A DNA stretch of 64,000 bases, from assembly GCA_034440635.1 (NCBI GenBank), contig JAOTON010000317.1, forward strand, positions 1-64,000. The letters run 5' to 3'. Positions 2,956 to 46,837 of the stretch are shown in pieces (positions within the stretch are counted from its first letter, which is position 1; each line of letters opens with the position of its first letter). Under the pieces are notes generated by a model. It saw only the letters and a list, made by a program, of their open reading frames with translations. It was not told the origin of the DNA and made no database searches. The position numbers and the translations under genes are program-made. This DNA comes from Lepas anatifera. Lineage: Eukaryota > Arthropoda > Thecostraca > Lepadidae.

Positions 2956-4104
2956 GCGGCAAGGGTGGACGTCCTCCTTCCTCTTTGGGGCCCGGAGGGC
3001 CCTCTAAAGACGCAAACCGTGCGAAGCGCGGCCCGCTTGCACTATGCTCTGGGGCCAAATGTGGGGCTTCATGTGGGACCAAATGTGGGGCTGCTCAGGG
3101 CCCTCTTAAGCCCTCTCCAGCACTCTATTCTGTGACGGGCAGCGCCCTTTTTGCCCATCTATACCGTCTGTAAAAATGTGCTATTTGAACCACTGGGGGC
3201 CTGGGCCCCCTCTCCGTAGCAGGGCCCGTTTGGTCAGCTAGGCCTTCTTTAACCGATAAAGCCACGATGGCCAGCGGGACTATTTGAGCAACAGCGCCCA
3301 GTGCGACTCGCAGACTGTCAGAGACCTGTCTATAGCCGCCAGGAACCTGTCTGATCAGCTGTGTCCTTCAGTGAGGAGGTTGTTGTGGCTGGTATGGACC
3401 ATTTTAGCCCAAAGGGCCCAGTCTGACAGTCAGGACCCTGTTCAAATAGAGAAGCCTCTGAATTAGTGTTACCGTCTATTCTCCCAGGGCCCTCTCTGAG
3501 TCAATTGGGCCCTCTACAGAGGAGTAACCAAGTAGAGGCGGCTGGTGCGGTGGCCCCTTGAGAGCCTGGAGGGCCCCCTCGCGGATAGGCGCGAAGAGCG
3601 ACCCGCCCGCATTATACTCTGTGGACCGCCGTGGAACTTCATGTCCAACAGGTCCCTCTTAATCCCTCTGCAGTACTCCATTTCTGTGACAAGCAGGGTT
3701 TTTACCAAAGGTTCCTCTAAACCGCTGTCACCCCTAAGGCCCTCTGTCGACAGTAGGACCCTCTGTGGTCAGCTTGGTCCTCTTCAACCGATAAGACCAC
3801 TATGGCCAGCAGGACTCTTTGGGCCACGAGGACCACTGCGTGTGGCAGGCCCAGCTAAAACCTTCAGGGCCCTGACGAACCAGCTGGGCCCTCTTTAAGT
3901 AAGGAGGCCACTGTGGCTTGTAGGAACCGTTTTTAGCCCACAGGGCCTTCTTAGGCTGTCAGAACCCTCTAACTAGAGAATCCCCTTGAACTAGTATGAC
4001 CGACTATTCTCTGCAGGGCTCTTCATCGCTAACAGGGCCCTCTCTGGTCATCTGGGCTCCTACAGAGGCGTAGCCAAAGAGAAGCGATTGGGGTGGTGGC
4101 CCCT
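2956..4104 (+). repeat. ~535-bp satellite array, left part
   Basis: Diverged tandem monomers built from phrases such as GGGCCCTCT, GTCAGCTGGG and AACCGATAAAGCC. The AACCGATAA landmark falls at about 3251 and 3786 here (535 bp apart) and at 6671 and 7174 on the far side of the retroelement. 3786 to 6671 minus the ~2.35-kb retroelement again leaves about 535 bp, so one array was split by the insertion. Open frames here are incidental. Confidence 0.65.
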
Positions 4105-6435
4105 CTACCTATCTGTTTTCCTATCTGACACCACCACTGCTAAATGGCGTGCTCTCCGACACGCGTTCATTTATCACCTGAATCTTGTTGCGCCGCTTCG
4201 TCACGTTTCATCCCAGAGGCGAAGAGTTACACCTGTGTCTGCAGACACACAGAATCTGTTGCGCTCTCGACGTGCCGCGCTCGGTACTGGTGATCTTATT
4301 GAATATGAGCGCATCAACCGCCTATTCCGGGCCGCTATACGCCGCCACTGTGTGACACTGTACACCGGCGAGATCGAGCGGCGGAGGCGCGGGGACTGTG
4401 GCGCGTGCTGCAGCCGGTGATAGGCCGCAAGCAGCAGCAGTGTAGCGTACTTGATGTAGCGCCTGACGCCTTAAATGACTACTACGCCACGATAGGTCAA
4501 GTCACTGCTGACAGTGTACCGCCTCCCACAACAGTGGTGCCAACACTACTGCCTCGAGTTATGACCTGCACATTTGAAATTCAGCCTATTGACTATGATA
4601 CACTCTGCATTGCTCTCGCTTCTATGCGATCCTCCAAAATCTACGGGTGTTGACGGCATCAGCATTGAACTACTTCAAAATGTCTTCTTTGGTGTAGGAT
4701 ACCCTCTTTTGCGCGTCGTCAATTCGAGTCTAACGTCAGCCTGTGTTCCTTCTGAGTGGAAACATGCTTTGGTTACACCAATTCCTAAATATAGAAAAGC
4801 TTCCGTACCAGCTGATACTAAACCTGTTTCGATTCTTCCGGCTGTTACCAAATTAGTTGAACTAATCGTACAAAAACAACTTGCGGAGTACCTCGAAAAC
4901 CACAGACTTGTATCAGACGCCCAACATGGGTATAGGAAACAACACTCGACCGAAACTGCTTTAAATGTCATTACTGACGCGGCTCTCCATGCCATCGGTA
5001 GAGGCGAAATTTCCATTCTGGTTCTACTTGATTTTTCCAAAATGCTTCGATGTCATACCACATGCGAAATTGCTTGAAAAACTCTCTCTATGGCATCAGT
5101 ACCAACTGGTTCGAAAATTACCTTGCAGGCCATACTCAGCAGGTACAGATGCGTACTGGCGGAAGCCCTCCAGAACGCGGTCTGGGCGGAGATGGCCATC
5201 TCTCGTCATCTCGTGACATTCCCATGGAAATATTTCAAGGAGGTGCTCTAAGTTGCACCCTGTTCTCCCTCTACGCTAACGACCTTAGTCTATGTGTTGG
5301 AGACGATGTCCTCGTCGTTCAGTATTGCGATGATACGCAGTTACTAGTTATCGGTAAGAAGCGTGATTTGCCGCAGTTGATCGCACGCATGGAGTCCGCT
5401 CTGGAGTCTGCCTTCCAGTGGTGTTGCCACAACAAAATGAAGCTTAATGCGGGAAAGACCCAAATAATCATTCTGGGTAGCCCAGCTATGTTACACGGCC
5501 TCCCTCTGTAAGACTAAATTTCTGCGGCTCGAACTTTCAAGAAACCCGTTTAGCTAAAAATCCTGGAGTTACCATTAATCGGCACCTAAATTATCAGTCT
5601 CATATTGATACTATGACACGGAAATGTACTGGCATACTTGTCGCACTCAGTCACTCCCGTCATGTACTGCCGCGCGCTGCACTGAAAACTGTTGTTCAGG
5701 CCTTGGTTTTGCCAATTGTTCAGAACTGTGCATCTGTATACGGAAGTTGCTGCAACACACAGGTCCATCGCGTTCAAAAGATTGTGAATTTTTGCGCCAG
5801 AGTGGTGACTGGTCGACGACGATGTGATCACATCTCCGATGCACTGCCTCAGCGAGGGTGGCACACTGCGAAGCAAATGATTGATTTTCGGACTGTATGT
5901 GCACTGCGGCGCGTACTTGTGGCAGGTGCTCCGACTCCGCTGGTAAATACAATTGGCCTGCGCGCCAACGTCCTCCACTCTCATGATACGCGCCGTGCCG
6001 AACTTTTAACTTTGCCGCAAATCAGAACCGAAGCTGGCCGTCGCAGAATTAACTACCGCGGTGTTCAGTTGTTGAATTCCTGTGGACTGGACCCATTTGA
6101 TCTGTCCTTCCAGGCGCCGCTGAAGTCACTGTTTCTAACCAGTCCTGGCTGAACAATTGTAGACATTTTATTGTTTTTGTTTCCATTTACCTTTTAGCAT
6201 TTAAGCATTTAAAACTTTTACTATCATTTTAATATTTTATGATACTTATTATGGCGTGTGTGATTGGGCGAACGGTATCTTATTCTTGAGGTGCTGCGAA
6301 CTTATGTGTGTATGTAGCTTGTTACGGCGCTTCATTCGCTGCTTTTACCATACGAACCCCATTTGTTTTAATATTTTGACGTGACAAGTGAAAGGCCACG
6401 ACTGTGTGGACTTTCGTCAAATAAACTGAACCTGA
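4105..6435 (+). mobile_element. CR1/Daphne-like non-LTR retrotransposon, 5'-truncated
   Basis: About 2.33 kb inserted in the satellite. It holds the linker upstream of RT (about 4110-4420), an RT domain and a C-terminal region to a stop at 6150-6152, then an AT-rich 3' UTR. The 3' end reads AAATAAACTGAACCTGAAC; short TGAAC-type repeats end many CR1/Daphne-clade elements. No endonuclease is present, as expected for 5' truncation during target-primed reverse transcription. Satellite continues on both sides. Confidence 0.75.
4120..6152 (+). pseudogene. Reverse transcriptase pseudogene (CR1/Jockey-like)
   Basis: The coding region is spread over several frames, so it is dead. Recognisable pieces: fingers with GVDGISIELLQ (about 4647), WKHALVTPIPK (about 4758), the HGYRKQHSTETAL block (about 4925), LDFSK followed by a frameshift near 5040, FDVIPHAKLLEKL, FQGGALS, and the catalytic block as QYCDDTQ (about 5320) where active relatives have YADD. 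The thumb/C-terminal part (5540-6152) runs in yet another frame. Shifts lie near 4410-4640, 5040 and 5510. Confidence 0.8.
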
Positions 6436-10840: not shown

Positions 10841-11640
10841 TGGTGTACCCTCTTTGGGCCGTGCCGCTCGAAATGTAGTGCCCTACGCCGTTGAGCATAG
10901 ATAGAACTAGACTGCATTTAGCGATTTAAACTATTGTTTGACAATGAAGTGCCTTTTTGGACAGTTGGGACATTCTGTCGCCTTGCCAAGCACCCGGGAA
11001 GAGTATAGGCACGTAATCCGTTTCCAGATAATGCCTCATCATTGCCAATAATCGTACGGGCGGAGCTAATCTGGTGCCCCTTGAGCTCATCTGGTGCCCC
11101 CTGAGCGCTGTTCTTGGCCCCTGGAGCTGATCATGTGACCTCTGAACTAATCTGATGCCCTCGTAGTCAATCTGGTGCCCCCTGAGAAAATAATTGTGCC
11201 TTCTGAACCTATATAATGCTCTCTGAGTTAGTCTGATGCCTCCGAGCTTACCTGGTGCCCCATTAGCTGTTTTAGTGCCTCTCGAGCTGATCCGGGCCCC
11301 CTGAACTTATTAAATGCCTCTCGTAGTTTATCTACTGTCCAGGGCCGCAGTCAGGAGGCACAGGGGGCACGTGCCCCCATCGGTGCCGGGTGCCCTTTTG
11401 ATTGCCAGGTGGTGTACCCCCTTTGGGCCGTGCCGCTCGAAATTTAGTGCCCTACGCTGTTGGACCTAGATGGAACTAGACCACATTTAGCGATTTCAAC
11501 TATTGTTTGACAAGTAAGTGCCTTTTTGGACAGCTAAAGCATTCTGCCGCCTTTCCAAGCACCCAGGAAGAGTATAGGCACGTAAACCGTTTCCAGATAA
11601 TGCCTTATCGTCGCCAATAATCGTACGGGTGGGGTTCATC
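10841..11640. repeat. Tandem duplication, ~568-bp offset
   Basis: The segment at about 10841-11070 recurs at about 11409-11640: TGGTGTACCCTCTTTGGGCC, GTGCCGCTCGAAAT, AGAGTATAGGCACGTAA and CCAATAATCGTACGGG all repeat in order. Each copy is followed by the 20-bp minisatellite, so the duplicated unit comprises unique sequence plus minisatellite. Confidence 0.75.
11066..11345. repeat. Degenerate 20-bp minisatellite, first block
   Basis: Repeats of a unit close to CTGAGCTGATCTGGTGCCCC, strongly diverged. The second block after the duplication is at about 11632-11855, and the main array at 12896-14255. Non-coding. Confidence 0.65.
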
Positions 11641-11860
11641 TGGTGTCCCCTGGAGCTGATCATGTGCCCTCTGAGCTGATCTGGTGCCCTCGTAGTCAAT
11701 CTGGTGCCCCCCTGAGAAAAGAAGTGTGCCTTCTGAGCCTGTATAATTTAGTTTGATGCCTCCGAGCTTGCCTGGTGTCCTTTTAGCTATTTTAGTGCCC
11801 ATGGGGCTGATTCGGGCCCCCGAGCTGATCTCATGCCTCCCCAAGTTGATCTACTGTCTC
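11632..11860. repeat. Degenerate 20-bp minisatellite, second block
   Basis: Same unit as at 11066-11345 (GAGCTGATCTGGTGCCC). It ends where TTAA family A begins, so that element landed in or beside the minisatellite, which resumes on its far side at about 12896. Confidence 0.65.
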
Positions 11861-12892
11861 TTAACCCTCGCCCCACCGGGGGCCATCGATGGCCCCCTAA
11901 GGTTTTTCCGAGATAGCAGAAAAACGACGAGGCGCAGCACCGCAGTTGAGGGCTCTACCTCTCACTGCATCATTTTCCCATCATCCCTGAAATTTTTTAC
12001 CCCGGGTCACCCAAGGTCAGGTCACCAGACGAGGTCAACCAAGGTCACCTCACTTCACTTTAGAGCTCTGTAAGAGCTACATTTCAAAGTCGATCGATTT
12101 GAAACTTCCTATACTTCATAACCCCTCCAGGGTCTACAAGGTGTATATCCGGGATTTTTCGATTTCGTGCCCTGAGGTCAGGTCACGAGGCGACCTCTCC
12201 CATTGGAAAAGCATAGGGAAAAGTTGTTTCATGATATAAAAGCCACAAAAATGATTGCAAATACTCAGACTGCTCAGAACAACGTTTTTGGACACCCTTT
12301 CACGGATCCCAGGGGTCATATTTGCCCTTTGACTTTTCCAAGGTCATCCAAGGTCACCAGAGGTCAAAAACAGTATTTTGGCAATAACTTTTGACCTAAT
12401 TAAGCTAGAGCGGTGAAACAAACACCATCGTGTTTGTCTTGTCACTGGCGTTCATTTGATATACGGCAAGGTCACTTTCTGACCTTTCGTGACCTCAAGT
12501 CATATTAGGTCACGAGGTGACCTCTGGAGGTCAAACCACTGGCGGGAGGTCTTTACGTTCCACATAGCAGAAAAAGTACTGGCAATTTTCTATCAAATTT
12601 ACTTTACCAGGCCTCAATAGCTCTAATGACATAAGAGTTATGCCCAGTTTGCTCAATCATTGCATATTTGAGTGAAAATAGCCGATCTTGACCTAATTTG
12701 ACCTCTGGAGGTCAAACCATTGACCTGAGCACTAAAACATGCGAAGTAATTTCTTACTGAATTCACGCAAGCTTTCTATTGCACTTTGCAGATTTGCGCT
12801 AACGCCCATATTTTCGGAGTTAGAGGGGGGGCCATCGATGGCCCCCCGGTGGGGCGAAGGTGGCGCCGGACCCCCGGTGGGGCGTGGGTTAA
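11861..12892 (+). mobile_element. TTAA family A element, copy 1 (complete)
   Basis: TTAA at 11861-11864 and 12889-12892. Left end CCCTCGCCCCACCGGGGG and right end CCCCCGGTGGGGCGTGGG are inverted repeats. Palindrome CCATCGATGG in a G/C run lies next to both ends. The interior is non-coding and full of AGGTCA/TGACCT half-sites, for example 12012-12050, 12170-12195, 12340-12370 and 12475-12535. TTAA followed by CCC is typical of piggyBac-type elements; this copy would be non-autonomous. Confidence 0.75.
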
Positions 12893-14255
12893 GTCAATAT
12901 GGTGCCTCTTCAGCTGATTAGGTGCCCCCTCATCTGATATTTGATGTCTCCTTTGATGGTCTGGTGCCCCCTGAGCTGGTTTGGTGGGCCCTGAGCCCAT
13001 ATTGTGTCCCCTGAGCTGCTATGTTGCTCCCTGAGCTGATTTAGGCTCCTGCCATAGTCTGGGGGGGCTGGGAGCTGATCTGGCCCCCCGAGGGGATCGA
13101 TCTTGTGCCACCTGAGCTGCAGTAATGTCCCTGAGTCGATCTGGTGCCTCCTGAGCCTATCTGATGCCCTCTGAGCTAGTCTGGTGACCCCTGAGCTAAT
13201 CTGGTGCCCTTTAAGCTGATCTGGGCCTCCTTACGTGATTTCATGAGCAGCTCTAAAGCCCTGAGCTGAGCTGGGCTCACAGAGACTGATGAAGGCTCCT
13301 GAGATGGAATGGGGCTCGTGAGCTGATTAAGAGCCTCCTGACGTGATCTGGTATTCCCGAGCTGGTTGGGGACCACTGATATGATTGTTTGTCCCCGAAG
13401 CTGATCTGGTGCCTTATGGGCATCTGGTGTCCCCTGAGCAGCTCTGGGGCTTTTGAACTGATTGGGCCCCGAGCTGGTGAGGGATGCTTGAGCTGATTTA
13501 GTGCCCCTAACTTGAACTTGCCCCCTGCGCTGATCGATCTGGTGCACCCTGAGCAAATATACTGCCTCCTGAACTTAACTAATGTCCCCTGAGTCGATCT
13601 GGTGCCTGCTGAATCATCAGTGTGTCTCCTGAGCCCATCTTATTCCCTCTGAGCTAGTCGGGTGCCCCATGGCTAATATGGTGCCCTTTAGGCTGACCCG
13701 GGCCTCCTGGCTTGATTACGTGATTTTCTGAGCAGCTCCCAGGCTCTGAGCTGAGCTGGGCCCACAGGGGTTGGTGAGGGCCCCTGAGATGGTATGGGGC
13801 TCCTGAGCTGATTAAGTGCCTCCTGACTTGATCTAGTATTCCCAAGCTGATCTGGACCCCGAGCTGGTCGGGGACCATTGATCTGATTGTGTGTCCCCGA
13901 GGCTGATCTGGTGCCCTATGGGCCGATCTGGTGTCCCTTGAGCAGCTCTGGGGCTTTTGAACTGCTTGGGCCCCGAGCTAATGAGGGATTTCTGAGCTGA
14001 ATTAGTGCTCCTGACTTGATCTTGCCCCCTGACCTGACTTGAGGCCCCTGAACTGATCTGGGACCCCAAGAGCTGATCTGGGGCCCAAGAGTGGATCTAG
14101 GTTCTGAGGGTACCCTGAGCTGGTCTGGGCGCTGAGCTTGTGAGAGCCCCTTAAGTTGGTTTGAGGCCCCCTGAGGTGATCTGGCGCCCTAAACTGTTCT
14201 GGAACTTCTTGAACTGGTTTAAGGCCCTATGAGCCTATCTGTGGCCCATTGAGCT
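12893..14255. repeat. 20-bp minisatellite with ~477-bp higher-order units
   Basis: Dense array of GAGCTGATCTGGTGCCCCCT-like units. On a larger scale the block starting CTGAGCTAGTCTGGTG near 13171 recurs near 13648 with the same internal landmarks in the same order (CTGAGCTGAGCTGGGC, GAGCAGCTCTGGGGCTTTTG, GTCCCCGA). Open frames across it are incidental. Confidence 0.75.
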
Positions 14256-21129: not shown

Positions 21130-21387
21130 ATGTCAAATAAAGAAGTCTCACTCTTGGACCAGAACTGCAGTGATGATGATCCTATTTTAGACCTTTCTCT
21201 GGAACAGGATACAGCTCCTTTGGATGATGAAGATCCTCGAGTGATGATAGACCAGACTCAAATGTGCAGAGTGTGTAGAATGCTTTCAAAGCCAATGTGT
21301 GTACATAATGATCTAGACAGAGCTAGCACAAATACACCTGGTACTAGGGCTGTGGCACCTCATGGAGTATATCAACCTCTGATTCAG
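21130..21387 (+). CDS. SLC30A2: ZnT exon 1 (N-terminal cytosolic region)
   Basis: ATG at 21130, 86 codons, ending CAG before GTAAGA. Acidic segment ([17 protein letters not shown]) and a Cys pair CRVCRM; last residues VYQPLIQ. Phase 0 matches exon 2. This region is poorly conserved in ZnTs, so the link to exon 2 rests on phase, a strong donor, position and acidic composition. Its codons are more AT-rich than those of exons 3-8. Confidence 0.7.
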
Positions 21388-24300: not shown

Positions 24301-27300
24301 CTCACGGAGGAAACCTTGTCGAAAGTGTCATATTTTGTGGACTGTTGGTGTTGATGCTTGGGTATTCTTTTTATATAATGTCCTTCATACGTAAATCATA
24401 GTTTTAAATGAGATTCCTGTCTATGAAAGTGTTAACCTGCGCCCCATCGGGGATCCGGCGCCATCTTCGCCCCATCGAGGGGCAATCAATGGCCCCCTCT
24501 AACTCCGAAATACGGGGGTTAGCGCAAATCTGCAAAGTGCATTAGAAAGCTTTTGTTGGTTTGACCTCCAGAGGTCAAGAAGATATGTCACGATAGGCTA
24601 TTTCCACTAAAATATGCAATGCTTAAAGGGAATGTGGCACCTTCACAACGTGATTTTAACTGAGATAGCCAAGTTGTAAAGCAGGTCGGAAAACCCGGTA
24701 CTCCATATTTCATTTGTCTTGGAACCCGATATTTCCGTAGAAAAAGGCTAAAACCTAACTGACACCAGCCCCCCTCAGCCCCCGTCGCCGGCGGCCATTG
24801 TTGTGAGCTACTGGTGTGACGACATATGCTGACGTCACGATGAGCATCAGCCAATTGAACATAATGACCTCCTGCCAGTGGTTTGACCTCCAAAGGTCAC
24901 CCTGTGACCTTATATGACCTGAGGTCACAAAAGGTCAGAAAGTGACCTTGTCGTATATTAAATGAAAGCGAGTGACGAGACATACACGATGACGTTCAGT
25001 TATGGTCAAAGTCCTATTTTGATCCCTCGTAACCTGTGAAGACCTCAGAGAGGTCATAGGGGAAGTATCGCCCCTGGGATCCGTGTAAGGATGTCCAAGA
25101 ACGTGTTTCTGAGCAAGCTGAGCATTTGCAATCATTTTTGTGACTTTTAGATCATAAGACAGCTTTTCCCATGTTTTTTCAATGACAGAGACCACCTCGT
25201 GACCTGACCTCAGGTCACAAAATCGAAAAAGCCGGGATATACATTTTGCAGACCCTGGAGGGGTCATGAAGTGTAGGAATTTTCAAACTGATCGGCTTAG
25301 AAATGTAACTCTTATAGAGGTCAAAAGTTGAAGTGAGGAGACCTTGGTTGACCTCGCCTGGTGACCTGACCTTGTGTGACCCGGGGTAGACAATTTTAGT
25401 GATGGTGTGAAAATGATGGGGTGAGAGGTAGAGCTCTCAACCGCGGTGCTGCGCCTCGTCGTTTTTCTGTTGTTTCGAAGAAACCTTAAGGGGGCCATCG
25501 ATGGCGCCCCCGTGGGGCGAGGGTTCAGTTATAACCAGTTATTTGGGAGGCCCATTCTAAATGCCTGATTTGATAGGGTCCATTTTCTTATTCAGCAAGC
25601 TTTATTGTGCCAAGTACTAAATGTGCTGGATTAACACATCCCTGTCCACAAGCTATGATGAGAGTACCTTACCTTGCCTTACCTACGGATTTCGGAAATT
25701 CGAGACCATGATCACCTCCTAGCATCATTCTCTAACAAGCTCAGGAAGGAGACAGGACTTGGTTTTTCTCAGGCTTTGAGCCTGAGTTGGGTCAATGGAA
25801 ACTTGCTGGCACCTGGGAACTCAAAGGCTTTGGTCATTCTGGACTGCTATATCTTACGTGGGCCCAATGAGCTTTAAGTTTCACCTTGAAATGACTTAAG
25901 TGGGAACATCCAACACAGAGGTGGGCGGGGAATTCCAATTTTTCACGATGTGAACGACAAATAAGGCTCGCTCAGTCCCAGTTGCAACTCGAGGAATCTA
26001 CAACTTCCATCGATGGCCGCAAGTATGAGAGGACATGTCCAGGTGAAACAATTGGTCTGGGTGCTAATCTATTGCTCCATGAAGAAGTTGATACACCTGT
26101 ACTATATTGCCATGGCGTCTCCTTTTGTACATGGATGGCAACTCGAGCTCCATAAACCTGTCGGTGTAGAGTAAGCCTCTCGGGGAGTGAGTCATACTGG
26201 TAGCCCAAAGCTGAGACTTTTGTATAAATTTATCATCAGCTCGGTTGAAAGGTCCCCAAGAAGCTTTTCCATATTCGAGCAAAGTATTAAATTTCCCCAA
26301 GGTAAAGCGTGGTCGCCATTCTTCATTACATTGCATGCATTATCTATCGTATCCAGGTATCATGTTACCGTACCTTCTATCCTCTTAGTTCAGTAACAGT
26401 ATTTTTGGATGACCATTTCTCGCATCCAGGCGCGTCGCCACAGAATTTTAACGGAGGGACGGGCCTTGGGCTGCCCATAACTGAGGGGAGTCGAATTTGG
26501 GGCATAAAGGCTGTCTGAAAACTCAAATGACCATGCACTTCACACACATATTTATGTAAATCGATGCAGATAAAAGAGAGTAAATGTCAGTCGAATTTGG
26601 GGCATAAAGGCTGTCTGAAAACTCAAATGACGATGCACTTCACAAACATATTTATGTAAATCGATGCAGATAAAAGAGAGCAAATGTGAAAAACGTAGGT
26701 TAAGTCCCATGATTATTTTGGGACATACCCTGATTCGCGAGTTTGGACGTATCCCCCCATCAACCCCCTTTGATGCCCATGCCCACATCTCATACTTTTG
26801 CAATGGGTTTTAAGATAAGATACGATTTAAGATATAAGATAAGCAAGTTAAAAGTAGGTGTGATAGTTTTTATATTTGTGATGGTATTTCTATTCTTGAT
26901 CTCCCAGTTTTGTCAAATTAGGTCGAGAAAAATTATCATACAAAACCAAACATATAAGTCACTGAGACTTGAGTTGATATTTGACTCTTCATTCTCCAAC
27001 TGAAACTTGTGCTCTTCGTGATAATTGACTGCATCAAACTTTAATAAACTGAGGTTAAATGGGCAAATACTCTCCCATGAAAAATACAAGGCCAGTTGCT
27101 TTTGACTCCGCCAATTACCACAGGCGGCGGAACGGGAGGTACCGTGCTCCCTCCCCCCACCTTGGACGGACCAGAGGGTACCGCCATTGAGGTGCCCCCC
27201 TTTAAATCGGCGAAGATAGCAATGAAGCGGCGTTTAGTCCGAGATTTCGCAAAGAAGCTTCGAGTTCGTAAGATTTTGTCGTGGACCCACAAAGTGTTAA

Positions 27301-29337
27301 GCGTTTCGGAATAAGCATTTATTTATGCTGTGTCTTAATGTGTAAACCTGTTAATCAAGTCTTATCCTGATCAGTGCCAAATCATGCTGAATATTATGTT
27401 GTTTCATATCAAATGTTACTGCAGAGCTATCCTTCATGGTTTCGCACGGTTATACCCTTCTGCATTTAATATTATGCATCATGTGTGACCATCGTCTATA
27501 CAGCTTATATAAGCTTGTATGGCTTCATTTCTATATGCTTGTATGCCAAAGGATAGATAGTGGATGCCGTAGTACATAAGCGCATACAGCACATAGGTGT
27601 CGTCAACACTGCCGTTCTGTTTTGCAGGATGACTCCTCGCAAGAGCTGCGTCAGGACTTCGAGGACTCGCACTGCCATGGCCGCCCACCGCGCTCCAACA
27701 GCAAACGAGAGGCACTCCTGCGCCTCGTTTTCACTTCAGCTTTCTGTTTCTGCTTTATGGTCAGTGGAGATGGAATATTAACCAGTGTGAAATTTTAAGT
27801 GTGGGCACCGCAAGAGTGCTGTATCTTTCCTAAAACATGGCAAGGTATTATATTATCTTATTTTGTTTAGGTATATCCAATGACTTGTACATGCATGGTT
27901 TCCTTCCACCTTTTATGTAATCTTCCCGGTGGGACAGTGAAGGTTTGATCTCCCCTGCCCAGTTCTGAATCCCATTGAAATCACCCTCGGGCAGCAGCAG
28001 TGCTGTAACGACACAGTTGTATGTCCTACCGTGTGTGTAGCCTTGTCGTGCCTGCGCCTCAGCGTATTGTCACCACCTTACCCGCCCTGGCCAGGTGGGC
28101 GAGTGGCTGGGAGGCTACCTGGCCAACAGCCTGGCGGTGATGTCGGACGCCGCCCACCTGCTCAGCGACTTCGGCAGCTTCCTGCTCAGCATATTCGCCA
28201 TCTGGCTCTCCATGCAGCGGCCCACGCAGAAGATGACCTTCGGCTACTTCCGCGCAGGTCGGTGGGACGTCAACGCGCCGGACTGGTAAAGCCAGTTAAA
28301 GCTGGTCCTGGTGGGCGCTCGTGTTTCCGGTCCCTCCAAATCATTTACCGAACTGATACCATTTCTGGTTTTGCCTGGACTACCAAAGCGATTACTGATC
28401 GGATCGTAGCCTGAAAATTTACCGATACGGGAATCCAAACGTGAGAATAGTTGTTTCTCCAAACTTTCACATTTGTTAAACCGATCACCGAGCCAGTAGA
28501 CCGGAGCCGATGCTGGCACGAGCCGGTGCCCTGTGTTGGCAGCGTGGCGGCGCCCCCTGGGCCAAGGAAAGGTCCTCTTGCACGGGGCTCAGAGTTTAGG
28601 GGGTAGGGGGCGCTAGTATCTTACCACGGGGAACCGATGCCCGATGGGAGGAACTCACCACCTTCCGCCCCCGGCCCCACAGATTACAATCGGGATCCAC
28701 AGATCCGAATGGCTTGCCATTGACCGGATCGGTCTATAGCAAGCGATCCACGCGTCAAATCCTTACCCTAAAAAGGAGACCAGTTCTGAGCAAATTTTCT
28801 CAGTTTCTTTTGGCCACTCCCTCCGAAAAACGCCCGAACAGTAACCACTTGTTTTTACCGCCAGCTGTTTAGATTCTGTATTCCGTAGCTTTGTTTTCTG
28901 TCTTTGTCGTGCTTTCTGGCGGAATTAGTCGTTTATTTTCATCCCAGTTCGGAGGCCGCCGTGTGCGACAGTAATCGGCCGATGCCGTTGCGCTGCCTGC
29001 GGGCGGGTGTGGCTCAGCTGTCCGTCTGCTGCCGCAGAGATCCTGGGCGCGGTGACCAGCGTGCTGACCATCTGGGTGGTGACCGCCGTGCTGGTGTACA
29101 TGGCCGTGGAGCGGATGTCGCACGGGCACTACGACATCGACGCCGACACCATGCTCATCGTCTCCGGCATCGGTGTCGCCGTCAACATCGTGTACGTGTC
29201 TGCGGCTCCTGTCACCGGAGCGAGGCGTCCGCTTGTATCACACGCAAAACCTCGGAACGTTGTAGCTTAGATACAAATGTATATGTTCCATCTAACATTT
29301 TTCAGAAGTATGAATGACTTTTAAGTGAGAGAAAATG

Positions 29338-29416
<79 letters not shown>

Positions 29417-32400
29417 TGAAGCGTTTTTTACTCCAGAGTTTCCCGTCGACGCTGGAATTGAAGATCTGTAAAAATATTGCAACATCTACTTTGAATAGAT
29501 GATGATACCAATACAACTATAAATCGTTAAAAATATATACCATAATAGTGTGTGTGCATCTATAATGTCCATTGATAAAGGACGACAAATTTCCGGTATG
29601 CCTTTGTACATTCAGATGTGAATGTATTGAGGGTGTCTGCTCAGCGGCAGCTCTTAGTTCGGGGTCTTAAGAATTGTCCACTCTTCGGACTGTCTCTATT
29701 TGTAAATACCATGCACAAGTAGCTCAACCAGTTTAGGTTGGGTGCCTTCTGCCAATAGATTGGATCAGCTTCTGAAAGTATTGAAACTGAGCTCATCTCA
29801 CATTCTTCTTGCAGGGGTGGCTGGTCTGTGTGTAGCTGTAATCGTTTTTAGGTATGTTCTGTTGGTGTCTGTTCGCCTCGTTTCTCAGAACCATTCAGAA
29901 ATGAATGTGAGTTAACTTGAAGTTCTTACAGACTTCTCGCGTCCCGAACAGTTGGAGTTGTGGGTAGGCTATCACCACACGCGACTCCGTGTATGTACTT
30001 AAACGAGAGTTATAACCGTCTCGATACATCAGCCTTCAATCGCCGCCCCCGAGCTGGTGTCTGTGACCCTCTCCCTCCCTGGCCAGGATGGGCGCCGTGC
30101 TGCACGGCCGGTGTTTCGGCTCGGGCGGTCACGGCCACAGTCACGGCCTGTCGGCCGGCCGCAGTCACGGCCACAGTCACGGCGGCGACGAGGTGGCGCG
30201 CAATATCAACGTCCGCGCCGCCACCGTGCACGTGCTGGGCGACCTCATCCAGAGCATAGGCGTGCTGGTGGCGGCGGTCGTCATCAAACTCAAGGTTAGC
30301 CGGCTTTGATGCGGGCTCAATGTAATGGGCTTTTGACTGAAGTTTAGTGAGGTTTCTTTTGAAGATACTTCAAAAGATTTGGCCAGGGATTCGACCAAAG
30401 TTTAGAGTGAGAAGTGCTTGACTATTTGGAGTTGCGGCGATCAGCCCAAGGTTGGAGGCTGCTTTGGGTGATGCTGTAGCGGCTCTATGAGGCAACAACG
30501 TGGGAGTGGAATGCGACGAGTGCTAGAAAAGCTTCTCTTGTTTTTCTTGGTTTGAAATCCTACAACCAACAACGCAGTGTCTTCGCTGGGTGACCATTTT
30601 TCATAGCTTTCCTGCCTTGCATGCCAGTCGGTGGAACCCCGGACGATCGGTGAACACTGTCCTGCTGGTGGCCTGTTGTAGTGACGTCGGGGCCGTGTCT
30701 CCGGACAGCCCGAGTACCGAGTGGCCGACCCCATCTGCACGCTGGTGTTCTCCGCCATCGTGATGGCCACCACCGTCGGCGTGATGAGGGACGCCGTCCA
30801 GGTGCTGATGGAGGCGGCGCCGCCCGAGCTCCAGTATAGGTCAGTGGCCGGCCAGGCCAGCCGGTGGCCGCGCGCTGGTGCTGTCTCTAACTCAAATGGT
30901 CGGAGCGTGCTTAGTGTTTCCGCCCCTTTTTACCGCGTCGGTGCGCTTTCCATGCTCGTAACAAAATTCGAAGTGTTAATAACTTTAAACTTGGTGAAAC
31001 GTCTATCCAACACCGATACGCCTCAGTCGGTGCCATACACGTACAAGCAATTGAAGGACGAGTAAGGAAATGGTTATGCCCACGGTGGATTGCGATGCGC
31101 CGAAAGGAGATGCAAATGGCTCATAATTATATTACGGCACATCGCACAAGTACCCAAAAAATGTTGTAATTCCTATGAATGAGACTAGGAACATAATCTA
31201 CCGATGGAGCCCCTTCTGGAGCTGCCGCCAGTTGCTTGCCTGGAGAGGAGATGTGCTGCTACCTGGAATCGCAGGATGGAGTCCGTGTGGACTCATTGTG
31301 CATTGGGTGACTGCTGGTTTTTCAGTTGTGAGCAAGTAACAAACTCCACATAATACGTATCACGTATTGCCTTCCAAACGCGCTGTTATGCACGCTTGCA
31401 ATCGCAAGCTGACCATTTTTGAAATAGCTTCCCTGGCACTAGTCTTTGACTTTCCCACGGCAAAAATATTTGACAGTGGAACTTGGTTTCCTGTTCTTCA
31501 TCCATCCCTTAGAAATACATCGGCTTGTGCGCATCGTCCCCTCATTGGCGTGTTCTGAGCATGCTTCTCTATCTGGCAGCGCCGTGCTGCGCGACCTGGA
31601 GGGTATCGAAGGCGTGGTCAAGGTGCACGACCTCAACATCTGGTCTCTGAACGTCGACCGGTTCGCCGTCACCGCGCATCTGGCCAGGGGTGAGCTCGCT
31701 GACCCCCAACCCATTAAAACATCCAACAGGCTTCCCAACTGTGTACTGATTTGGCTGTTTGGTACTACGAACTTAAACTGGTGCTGACTTAATCTCTCTT
31801 TCACCTTCCCTCTCTCGCCGCCAGACCGGTCCAGTGGAAAGATGCTCCCACTCTCCCAGTCAGTACAGTGATCAGACATCAGGCGTTCCCCAACCCCAGG
31901 GGCTAATAGTGACCAGGTGCATCCTCCCCCAGATCCTGGGACGGGTGGAGATCAGACAATTACTCTTCCTCAGACCCTGGTGCGGACAGTGACCATACGT
32001 TCCCTTTTCCCTCTTCTTGGCAGTGGTCTGGTGCTCCCTCTTTCGTCCACTGGACAGTGACCAGGTGTTACTTCTCCCCCAGACCCGGGTGTGGACAGTG
32101 ACCACGTGCTCCCCTTCCTCAGACCGAGGGACAGACAGTGACCAGGTGCTCCCCTTCCTCAGACCCGGGAGCCGACAGTGACCAGGTGCTCCCCCTTCCT
32201 CAGACCGAGGGACAGACAGTGACCAGGTGCTCCCCTTCCTCAGACCCGGGGGTGGACAGTGACCAGGTGCTCCCCTTGCTCAGACCCGGGGGTGGACAGT
32301 CACCAGGTGCTCCCCTTCCTCAGACCCGGGGGCGGACAGTGACCAGGTGCTCCCCTTCCTCAGACCCGAGGGCTAACAGTCACCAGGTGCTCCCCTTCCT

Positions 32401-33310
32401 CAGACCCGGGGGCGGACAGTGACCAGGTGCTCCCCTTCCTCGGACCCGGGGGCGGACAGTGACCAGGTGCTCCCCTTCCTCAGACCCGGGGTGGACAGTG
32501 ACCAGGTGTTCCCCCTTCCTCAGACCCGGGGGCGGACAGTGACCAGGTGCTCCCCTTCCTCAGACCCGGGGTGGACAGTGACCAGGTGTTCCTCCTTCCT
32601 CAGACCCGGGGGCGGACAGTGACCAGGTGATCCCCTTCCTCAGACCCGCGGGTGGACAGTGACCAGGTGCTCCCCTTCCTCAGACCGGGGGTGGACAGTG
32701 ACCAGGTGCTCCCCCTTCCTCAGACCCGGGGGTGGACAGTGACCACGTGCTCCCCTTCCTCAGACCCGGGGGTGGACAGTCACCAGGTGCTCCCCTTCCT
32801 CAGACCCGGGGGCGGACAGTGACCAGGTGCTCCCCTTCCTCAGACCCGAGGGCTAACAGTCACCAGGTGCTACCCTTCCTCAGACCCGGGGTGGACAGTG
32901 ACCAGGTGCTCCCCCTTCCTCAGACCCGGGGGCGGACAGTGACCAGGTGCTCCCCTTCCTCAGACCCGCGGGTGGACAGTGACCAGGTGCTCCCCTTCCT
33001 CAGACCGGGGGTGGGCAGTGACCAGGTGCTCCCCCTTCCTCAGACCCGGGGGTGGACAGTGACCAGGTGCTCCCCCTTCCTCAGACCCGGGGGTGGACAG
33101 TGACCACGTGCTCCCCTTCCTCAGACAGAGGGATAGACAGTGACCAGGTGCTCCCCTTCCTCAGACCCGGGGGCGGACAGTGACCAGGTGCTGAGGACGG
33201 CACTGGCGCTGCTGCGGCTGCGGCACAACTTCGCCTCCACCACCATCCAGGTGGAACTGTACGAGTCGTCGATGGACGCGTGCGACGCCTGCCAGCTGCC
33301 CGTCCGCTGA
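21130..33310 (+). CDS. SLC30A2: Zinc transporter, SLC30A2/3/4/8 (ZnT) group, 8 exons
   Basis: Cation diffusion facilitator that exports cytosolic Zn2+ into vesicles or organelles in exchange for protons (family knowledge). Exons: 21130-21387, 27628-27759, 28095-28257, 29038-29191, 30087-30294, 30709-30839, 31580-31689, 33165-33310. All join in frame at GT-AG sites to 433 codons plus TGA. Domains: acidic cytosolic N-terminus with SHCHG (about 100-104); TM I in exons 2-3; TM II with the HxxxD zinc site AAHLLSDF (H151, D155); His-rich loop HGHSHG ... SHGHSHG (251-268); TM V with the second site HVLGD (H284, D288); [12 protein letters not shown]; cytosolic domain ending in CDACQ. Length matches animal ZnT2/3/4/8. 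Which vertebrate paralogue it matches best cannot be settled by eye. Intron 1 (6.2 kb) and intron 7 are repeat-filled. Confidence 0.9.
21817..22172 (+). mobile_element. tRNA-derived SINE (long-head type) in ZnT intron 1
   Basis: Starts GCTGCCCCGGTAGCTCAGTT with box A TAGCTCAGTTGG. The box B-like GGGATCGGTTCCCC comes about 90 bp in rather than about 55, so the tRNA-like head contains extra sequence (CAGAAGCATGCAGTGGCAGT region). Ends in an A/T-rich tail (AAAAAATAATAACTAATAATA). A second copy lies on the minus strand at 54616-54986. Confidence 0.75.
22173..23259. other. ZnT intron 1, unassigned
   Basis: No gene recognised on either strand; short open frames only. Composition is AT-rich. Confidence 0.35.
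23260..24292 (+). mobile_element. TTAA family A element, copy 3 (diverged)
   Basis: Left end decayed (ATAACCCTTGCCCCCC), right TTAA at 24289-24292. Same order of landmarks as copies 1 and 2 (TTTTTACCCTGTGGCACACC, ATGGCCCCCTAAGG, ATTTTCGGAGTTAAAGGGAG). AGGTCA motifs partly eroded. Lies in ZnT intron 1. Confidence 0.7.
24432..25527 (-). mobile_element. TTAA family A element, copy 4 (inverted)
   Basis: Reverse orientation relative to copy 3 and only about 140 bp away. TTAA at 24432-24435; the outer end is TTCA (decayed TTAA) at 25524-25527. Contains GGGGGCCATCGATGG near 25492. A segment of about 245 bp (about 24622-24870) has no counterpart in other copies and may be an insertion. Confidence 0.7.
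25990..26336 (-). pseudogene. CR1-like reverse transcriptase C-terminal fragment
   Basis: Minus-strand frames read [20 protein letters not shown] ... [20 protein letters not shown] ... FHLD, matching the C-terminal region of the element at 50350-52205 ([20 protein letters not shown] ... LNLPSLYHRRLRGDMIRVYQ). Frameshifted near 26070-26200. In ZnT intron 1. Confidence 0.75.
26491..26690. repeat. Perfect-period 100-bp tandem duplication
   Basis: TCGAATTTGGGGCATAAAGG starts at 26491 and again at 26591; the 100-bp copies differ at only a few sites (for example CCATGC/CGATGC, CACACA/CACAAA). Recent duplication in ZnT intron 1. Confidence 0.85.
29339..29413. repeat. (TA)n microsatellite in ZnT intron 4
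   Basis: About 75 bp of alternating TA with one break. Located 148 bp after the exon 4 donor. Confidence 0.95.
31870..33164 (+). repeat. 40-bp minisatellite carrying repeated 3' splice sites (ZnT intron 7)
   Basis: About 28 regular units from about 32050, plus decayed ones from about 31870. Each 39-41-bp unit contains a pyrimidine tract ending CCCCTTCCTCAG, then ACCCGGGGGCGGACAG and TGACCAGGTGCT. That is the acceptor of exon 8 plus the first 28 nt of exon 8, which is the last, diverging unit of the array. A larger ~480-bp unit is visible: the variant pair with GGGCTAACAGTCACC occurs at about 32370 and 32850. Confidence 0.9.
33165..33310 (+). CDS. SLC30A2: ZnT exon 8 (C-terminal domain and stop)
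   Basis: Begins directly after CTTCCTCAG. It completes the Asp codon begun in exon 7 and reads [20 protein letters not shown] to CDACQLPVR and TGA at 33308-33310. Equivalent to the last cytosolic helix and strand of ZnT2/3/8 (human-type VLKTA ... CQACQ). The first eight residues come from the repeat unit, so this piece of protein sequence is shared with the intronic minisatellite. Confidence 0.85.

Positions 33311-36865: not shown

Positions 36866-46837
<9,972 letters not shown>

Follow-up and report, generated by a model that had tools for sequence, protein, structure and literature searches.

Tandem repeats that span an exon–intron boundary have been described in amphioxus under the name of mirage minisatellites. 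They occur in Adh3, in the globin genes BflGb6 and BflGb9, in troponin C, and in PGBD5, at acceptors as well as donors; their units measure 10–72 bp in Adh3 and 150–160 bp in the globins, their copy number is unstable, and splicing is apparently normal (PMC3087553; PMC3902484). In human duplicated genes, minisatellites with units of about 30 bp at exon–intron boundaries can alter splicing (PMC2812944). Here we describe a related arrangement in the barnacle Lepas anatifera, in a stretch of 64,000 nucleotides (contig JAOTON010000317.1, positions 1 to 64,000; hereafter the window), where intron 7 of a zinc transporter (ZnT) gene ends in an array of copies of its own acceptor and of the start of exon 8.

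The ZnT array resembles the amphioxus mirages in being a tandem duplication that spans an intron–exon boundary beside a genuine exon. It differs from them in its crustacean host, in its 28 copies, and in the presence of such arrays at several unrelated genes within a small sample. The human boundary repeats, described as variable internal tandem repeats, lie within segmental duplications and can form novel introns (PMC2812944), whereas here an ordinary exon boundary has been multiplied. With the Rogers model of intron gain the array has in common a tandem duplication with splice signals in its units, but here one intron end is duplicated and no new intron is shown. An earlier reading of the window, made without database searches (the sequence-only reading), knew of no standard description of such an arrangement; the amphioxus papers supply one (PMC3087553; PMC3902484), and what is new is the barnacle genome and the recurrence at several genes. 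A literature search, which missed most subscription papers, found the term mirage in the amphioxus papers alone and found no report of mirages in barnacles. We consider it likely that the ZnT array is a mirage-type minisatellite, a junction-spanning tandem duplication that is tolerated since splicing would use the exon-proximal copy.

Anatomy and ancestry of the zinc transporter array

The plus strand of the window carries an SLC30A2-like ZnT gene of eight exons (Table 1). In Pfam, the product, 433 residues long, is matched by Cation_efflux (E 1.9e-38) and ZT_dimer (E 6.4e-12); the latter match (residues 343–417) extends into exon 8. Among the best 120 of 2703 matches, residues 90–433 share 73% identity with a protein of Amphibalanus amphitrite, 77% with one of Pollicipes pollicipes, and 75% with an unnamed protein; the next named matches, from a sea spider, ticks, and horseshoe crabs, stand at 52–56%. 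From these matches the source would be a barnacle or a near relative of one. A protein labeled as that of a bird, Zosterops borbonicus (P0004), ranks fourth among the matches listed, between barnacles and chelicerates, with 46% identity and 524 bits. Because the join of exons 7 and 8 aligns without gaps to three relatives (P0001, P0002, and P0003), position 33165 is very probably the real exon 8 acceptor; the homology across this join contradicts the condition that the sequence-only reading named as a refutation, namely that 33165 is no acceptor. The start of exon 8 encodes a 19-residue stretch; P0001 and P0003 have the same residues there, and P0002 differs at two of them. Recruitment of exon 8 from a repeat is ruled out by this conservation, and since the exon start is conserved in all three relatives, it is the ancestral copy and the array is derived.

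Tandem Repeats Finder (TRF) reports a single array at the end of intron 7 (32051–33192, period 40, 28.5 copies, 89% matches, score 1785), and its autocorrelation at lag 40 reaches 0.73, where 2000 shuffles give 0.33 at most. Wrap-around alignment resolves 27 regular units with exon 8 as the 28th copy, each unit joining 28 nt from the start of exon 8 to a 12-nt intron end that holds a pyrimidine tract and CAG. Both the count and the unit structure agree with the sequence-only reading, which had described some 28 copies of a 40-bp unit, 28 nt exonic and 12 nt intronic, with exon 8 as the last. Its further claim, that every unit carries an acceptor, stands as regards the near-identical acceptors but not as regards "every": AG is kept in 26 of the 27 regular units, and the exception (32404–32443) ends in TCGG. 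A branch-point-like TGAC, a candidate for that role, is found in 23 of the 27 units and TCAC in the remaining 4, the A of the motif lying 21 nt upstream of the unit's final G. When decayed units are included, there are 33 upstream unit starts; 22 of them agree with the real acceptor over the last 12 intronic nt, and 9 over the last 24. Upstream sequence does not set the real acceptor apart; exon sequence past position 28 does. As in mirages, the array spans the intron–exon boundary, the genuine exon is intact at one end, and splice signals are present in many copies.

Six internal units are identical to exon 8 across all 28 nt, and the most diverged regular unit is the one just before exon 8 (22 of 28 exonic nt match). 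Counted as cells changed, variability is 45/351 at unit positions 1–13, 10/405 at positions 14–28, and 3/324 at positions 29–40; arrays at a casein kinase II alpha (CK2) exon and in a receptor-like gene, both taken up below, show only a weak trend toward a less variable splice-site part. A higher-order repeat is not claimed, mean identity being 0.930 at lag 12 (3/15 pairs identical) and 0.932 at lag 2 (3/25). In a DNA search of the whole assembly (1.04 Gb, 2126 contigs), which passes over simple repeats and very common words, the array locus is present in one copy. Its only other match, at 72%, is an independent array at another gene, where a glutamate-receptor-like exon has 13 extra copies of its own acceptor; a dispersed repeat or transposon was rejected on this result.

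Most ZnT units hold CAGGTG together with CAG/A, that is, a donor-like and an acceptor-like motif. This would suit a different history, in which introns were gained when exonic AGGT-containing segments were duplicated in tandem and the arrays are what is left of that process; the Rogers model has been proposed for mirages in one amphioxus paper (PMC3087553), and human tandem repeats at exon–intron boundaries can create introns (PMC2812944). We nonetheless think such a history quite improbable, for the array covers only the acceptor end of the ZnT intron and its units carry intron-end sequence, so that the intron would probably predate the array.

Reading frames behind the extra acceptors

None of the 28 AG-bearing upstream unit acceptors would give the normal C-terminus. 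Use of the nearest one (33124/33125) would add 40 nt and shift the frame to an early stop, as the sequence-only reading had stated, the stop coming after 19 codons. Predicted products from the upstream acceptors range from 402 to 511 residues, against the normal 433, and the normal 48-residue tail is absent from all of them; their first few residues can resemble it. Frames were read for three acceptor arrays, and no extra acceptor is both open and in frame in ZnT (0/28), in one receptor-like array (receptor array A, 0/12), or in CK2 (0/11), two in receptor array A and one in CK2 being open but out of frame. That the exon-proximal acceptor alone is open and in frame in all three arrays would fit exon-definition splicing. 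In ZnT, the spliceosome probably has to choose among the acceptors of the array.

The failure of every upstream ZnT acceptor to reach the normal C-terminus, the low variability of the acceptor part of the units, and the retention of AG in 72 of 74 extra acceptor copies in five arrays could also speak for actual use of the extra acceptors. Altered C-termini would then be made, and copy number would tune the dose of functional transporter by poison-site regulation. We regard such regulation as improbable. A shifted frame would be expected to meet a stop in any case. A premature stop in a terminal exon need not trigger classical exon-junction-dependent decay, which is not expected here because the stop reached from an upstream acceptor would fall in the last exon. 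The amphioxus data suggest undisturbed splicing (PMC3087553).

Recurrence at unrelated exons

The arrangement is not peculiar to the ZnT gene. Mirages recur on acceptor and donor sides in unrelated genes of this genome, and we consider this recurrence a more interesting result than the ZnT array itself. The glutamate-receptor-like exon mentioned above, a putative member of that family, matches ANF_receptor weakly (E 0.051, short of the Pfam threshold) and nothing in PDB. Further along the same contig, the exon MIGDLLEGRADLAIADLTI, presumably receptor-like and taken as part of the same gene, has 17 extra acceptor copies in units of about 71 bp with about 33 exonic nt in common, and two more arrays adjoin splice sites, an acceptor and a donor, that they do not clearly copy. 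The glutamate-receptor-like exon of locus L003 reads as far as SISP in one frame and continues from SCDSDEAW in a second, with a frame break, a sequence error, or a very small intron at 5300–5320.

Recurrence was measured on kinase exons. A Pfam kinase search listed 139 exon-level matches, from which partial-domain matches were picked by eye before the flanks were viewed; the resulting 60 loci hold 67 matches and extend 500 nt to each side. With minisatellites defined by a period of at least 15 and a score of at least 90, 15 of the 60 loci contain them, in 18 merged arrays. Strict mirages, in which the repeat includes the splice site of the exon itself plus at least about 11 exonic nt (partly judged by eye), number four: L028, L062, L038, and L051 (Table 1). 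At L021, L027, L032, L034, L054, and L060 the arrays adjoin the exon only. From 19 matches to ABC transporters, 8 loci were taken with 150 nt on each side; 3 of the 8 have an array at or near an exon edge, and two of these (L069 and L073) were called mirages by eye from a longer exon match. Over both families, 6 strict mirages were counted among 68 loci with 150 exon edges, in a sample that is small and biased to conserved exons. Were these loci representative, introns with tandem copies of their own splice site would number in the thousands in this genome, an extrapolation from small numbers.

Of 134 kinase exon edges, 9 have at least two copies of a nearby 24-nt splice-site-like probe within their locus; none of 2680 probe sets placed on other loci does, and the reverse strand likewise gives 0 of 134. 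The probe represents the true junction at only four of the nine edges (at the junction in L028, L038, and L062, at the next copy in L051). L021, L027, L034, L054, and L060, where the best probe is internal to the array and not the true junction, were rejected as mirages, and a 20-nt junction test finds no copy at L021 and one at L027. BLAST of exon sequence alone against its own flanks gives no reliable excess at 24 bits (7/67 vs. a control rate of 0.062) or at 30 bits (4/67 vs. 0.021), the control being inflated by paralogue flanks that contain real exon sequence; repeated exon-edge matches in this search single out L028, L051, and L062. L066 has a match at 31 bits. A rough test, which hinges on an assumed rate of 6%, gives P 0.001 for 6 strict mirages in 21 arrays and P 0.02 for 4 in 18 kinase arrays. 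Extra donors keep GT in 19 of 25 copies in three arrays (20 of 26 if the single L027 copy, which was left out, is added); the comparison with AG retention (Fisher P 0.003) is not used as a test because copies within an array are not independent.

This recurrence also bears on the possibility that the tandem copies were produced in assembly from collapsed or stuttered reads, as happened to one amphioxus mirage in the draft genome (PMC3087553). The ZnT units differ mutually and decay toward the 5' end; and because independent, unrelated loci show the pattern with different periods and on both sides of exons, we consider an artifact very improbable.

A junction-spanning duplication could have produced the ZnT array as follows. 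A segment of about 40 bp across the junction of intron 7 with exon 8 would have been duplicated in tandem, and unequal exchange or slippage would have enlarged and reshuffled the array. At every duplication the intact exon would stay 3' while spare junction copies pass into the intron. With the exon-proximal copy spliced—the last acceptor in ZnT, the first donor in donor-side cases—the array would be largely tolerated. It is one of several of its kind in this genome.

Three points weigh against this account. Within the ZnT units, variability is lowest in the splice-site part, unlike what simple neutrality predicts; selection, chance, or CpG decay and G-run slippage in exonic positions 1–13 could be responsible. 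Use of 33165 alone is a prediction from sequence. Finally, array edges in the kinase loci lie close to exon edges more often than in 4000 random placements: 10 of 18 within 40 nt (2.86 expected, P 0.0005), 5 of 18 within 15 nt (1.16 expected, P 0.004), and 11 of 18 within 60 nt (4.19 expected, P 0.00075), counts that array-filled short introns would inflate and for which the exon edges are those of hidden Markov model matches. This excess may go beyond random duplication, and it could reflect a mutational hot spot or an intron-length effect. Under a hot spot, splice junctions would be birthplaces of minisatellites genome-wide through a transcription- or splicing-linked process, a few percent of introns would hold arrays of their own acceptor or donor, and the spliceosome would carry a constant burden. 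We think this unlikely, and a little more so because array coverage is flat, with no peak at exon edges: upstream it is 0.084 in the 50 nt nearest the exon and 0.075–0.133 beyond, and downstream 0.065 nearest the exon and 0.051–0.112 beyond.

With these loci, mirages move from a lancelet curiosity to an arthropod, which raises the question of exon–intron junctions as birthplaces of minisatellites. The arrays are also natural experiments, in which 2 to about 28 near-identical acceptors stand in nearly the same upstream context and acceptor choice among equals becomes testable.

Repeat content and other features

Minisatellites make up 6.7% of the kinase sample (60 loci, 78,557 bases), 15.1% of a 29,702-base stretch of contig C152, and 2.7% of the window; two other stretches of 9,901 bases each contain none. 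The description "minisatellite-rich" is true of this genome in places only.

Table 1. Exons and arrays in the window, and mirages at sampled exons elsewhere in the assembly
Feature	Position or locus	Strand	Extra copies	Side	Remarks
Putative first coding ZnT exon	21130..21387	+			open frame to CAG/GTAAGA, phase 0 into exon 2; start codon without other support
ZnT exon 2	27628..27759	+			homology
ZnT exon 3	28095..28257	+			homology
ZnT exon 4	29038..29191	+			homology
ZnT exon 5	30087..30294	+			homology
ZnT exon 6	30709..30839	+			homology
ZnT exon 7	31580..31689	+			donor GTGAGC at 31690
Decayed units, presumably older	31818..32082	+			wrap-around alignment; AG-bearing unit acceptors at 31933 and 31974
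Regular units (n=27, 40–41 bp)	32083..33164	+			wrap-around alignment; exon 8 (33165) is the 28th copy
ZnT exon 8, last coding exon	33165..33310	+			stop codon 33308–33310; first 28 nt are the terminal repeat copy; ZT_dimer match
Second mirage in the window	38375..38521	-		donor	50-bp unit x 2.9: real STRAD-like exon end and two copies (one GT, one CT)
STRAD-like pseudokinase exon (codon-aligned part)	38485..38667	-			donor GTGAGA just beyond 38485; STRAD alpha in PDB, E 9e-12, query residues 3–61 of 61
CK2 alpha exon	L028		11	acceptor	exon 64/65 identical to PDB casein kinase II alpha
LIM kinase exon	L062		16	donor	
Kinase exon	L038		3	acceptor	
Kinase exon	L051		7	donor	
ABCB-like exon	L069			acceptor	20-nt test (at most 6 mismatches): 1 copy; other TRF copy has a one-base deletion
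ABC exon	L073			donor	20-nt test: 3 copies with 6, 6, and 4 mismatches, the last reading CT for GT

Several further repeats were recorded. ZnT intron 1 contains a 100-bp direct duplication in 2 copies with 96% matches (26489–26687). A (GA)n repeat of some 587 bp (37199–37785) begins right at the GTGAGAGAG donor of the STRAD exon that comes next on the minus strand. Several degenerate 20-bp arrays with a consensus near ATCTGGTGCCCCCTGAGCTG lie at 11063–14098. At locus L005, a 23-bp array of 64 copies (4021–5494) begins about 25 nt past a GTAAGG donor of the receptor-like gene, the donor itself not being copied.

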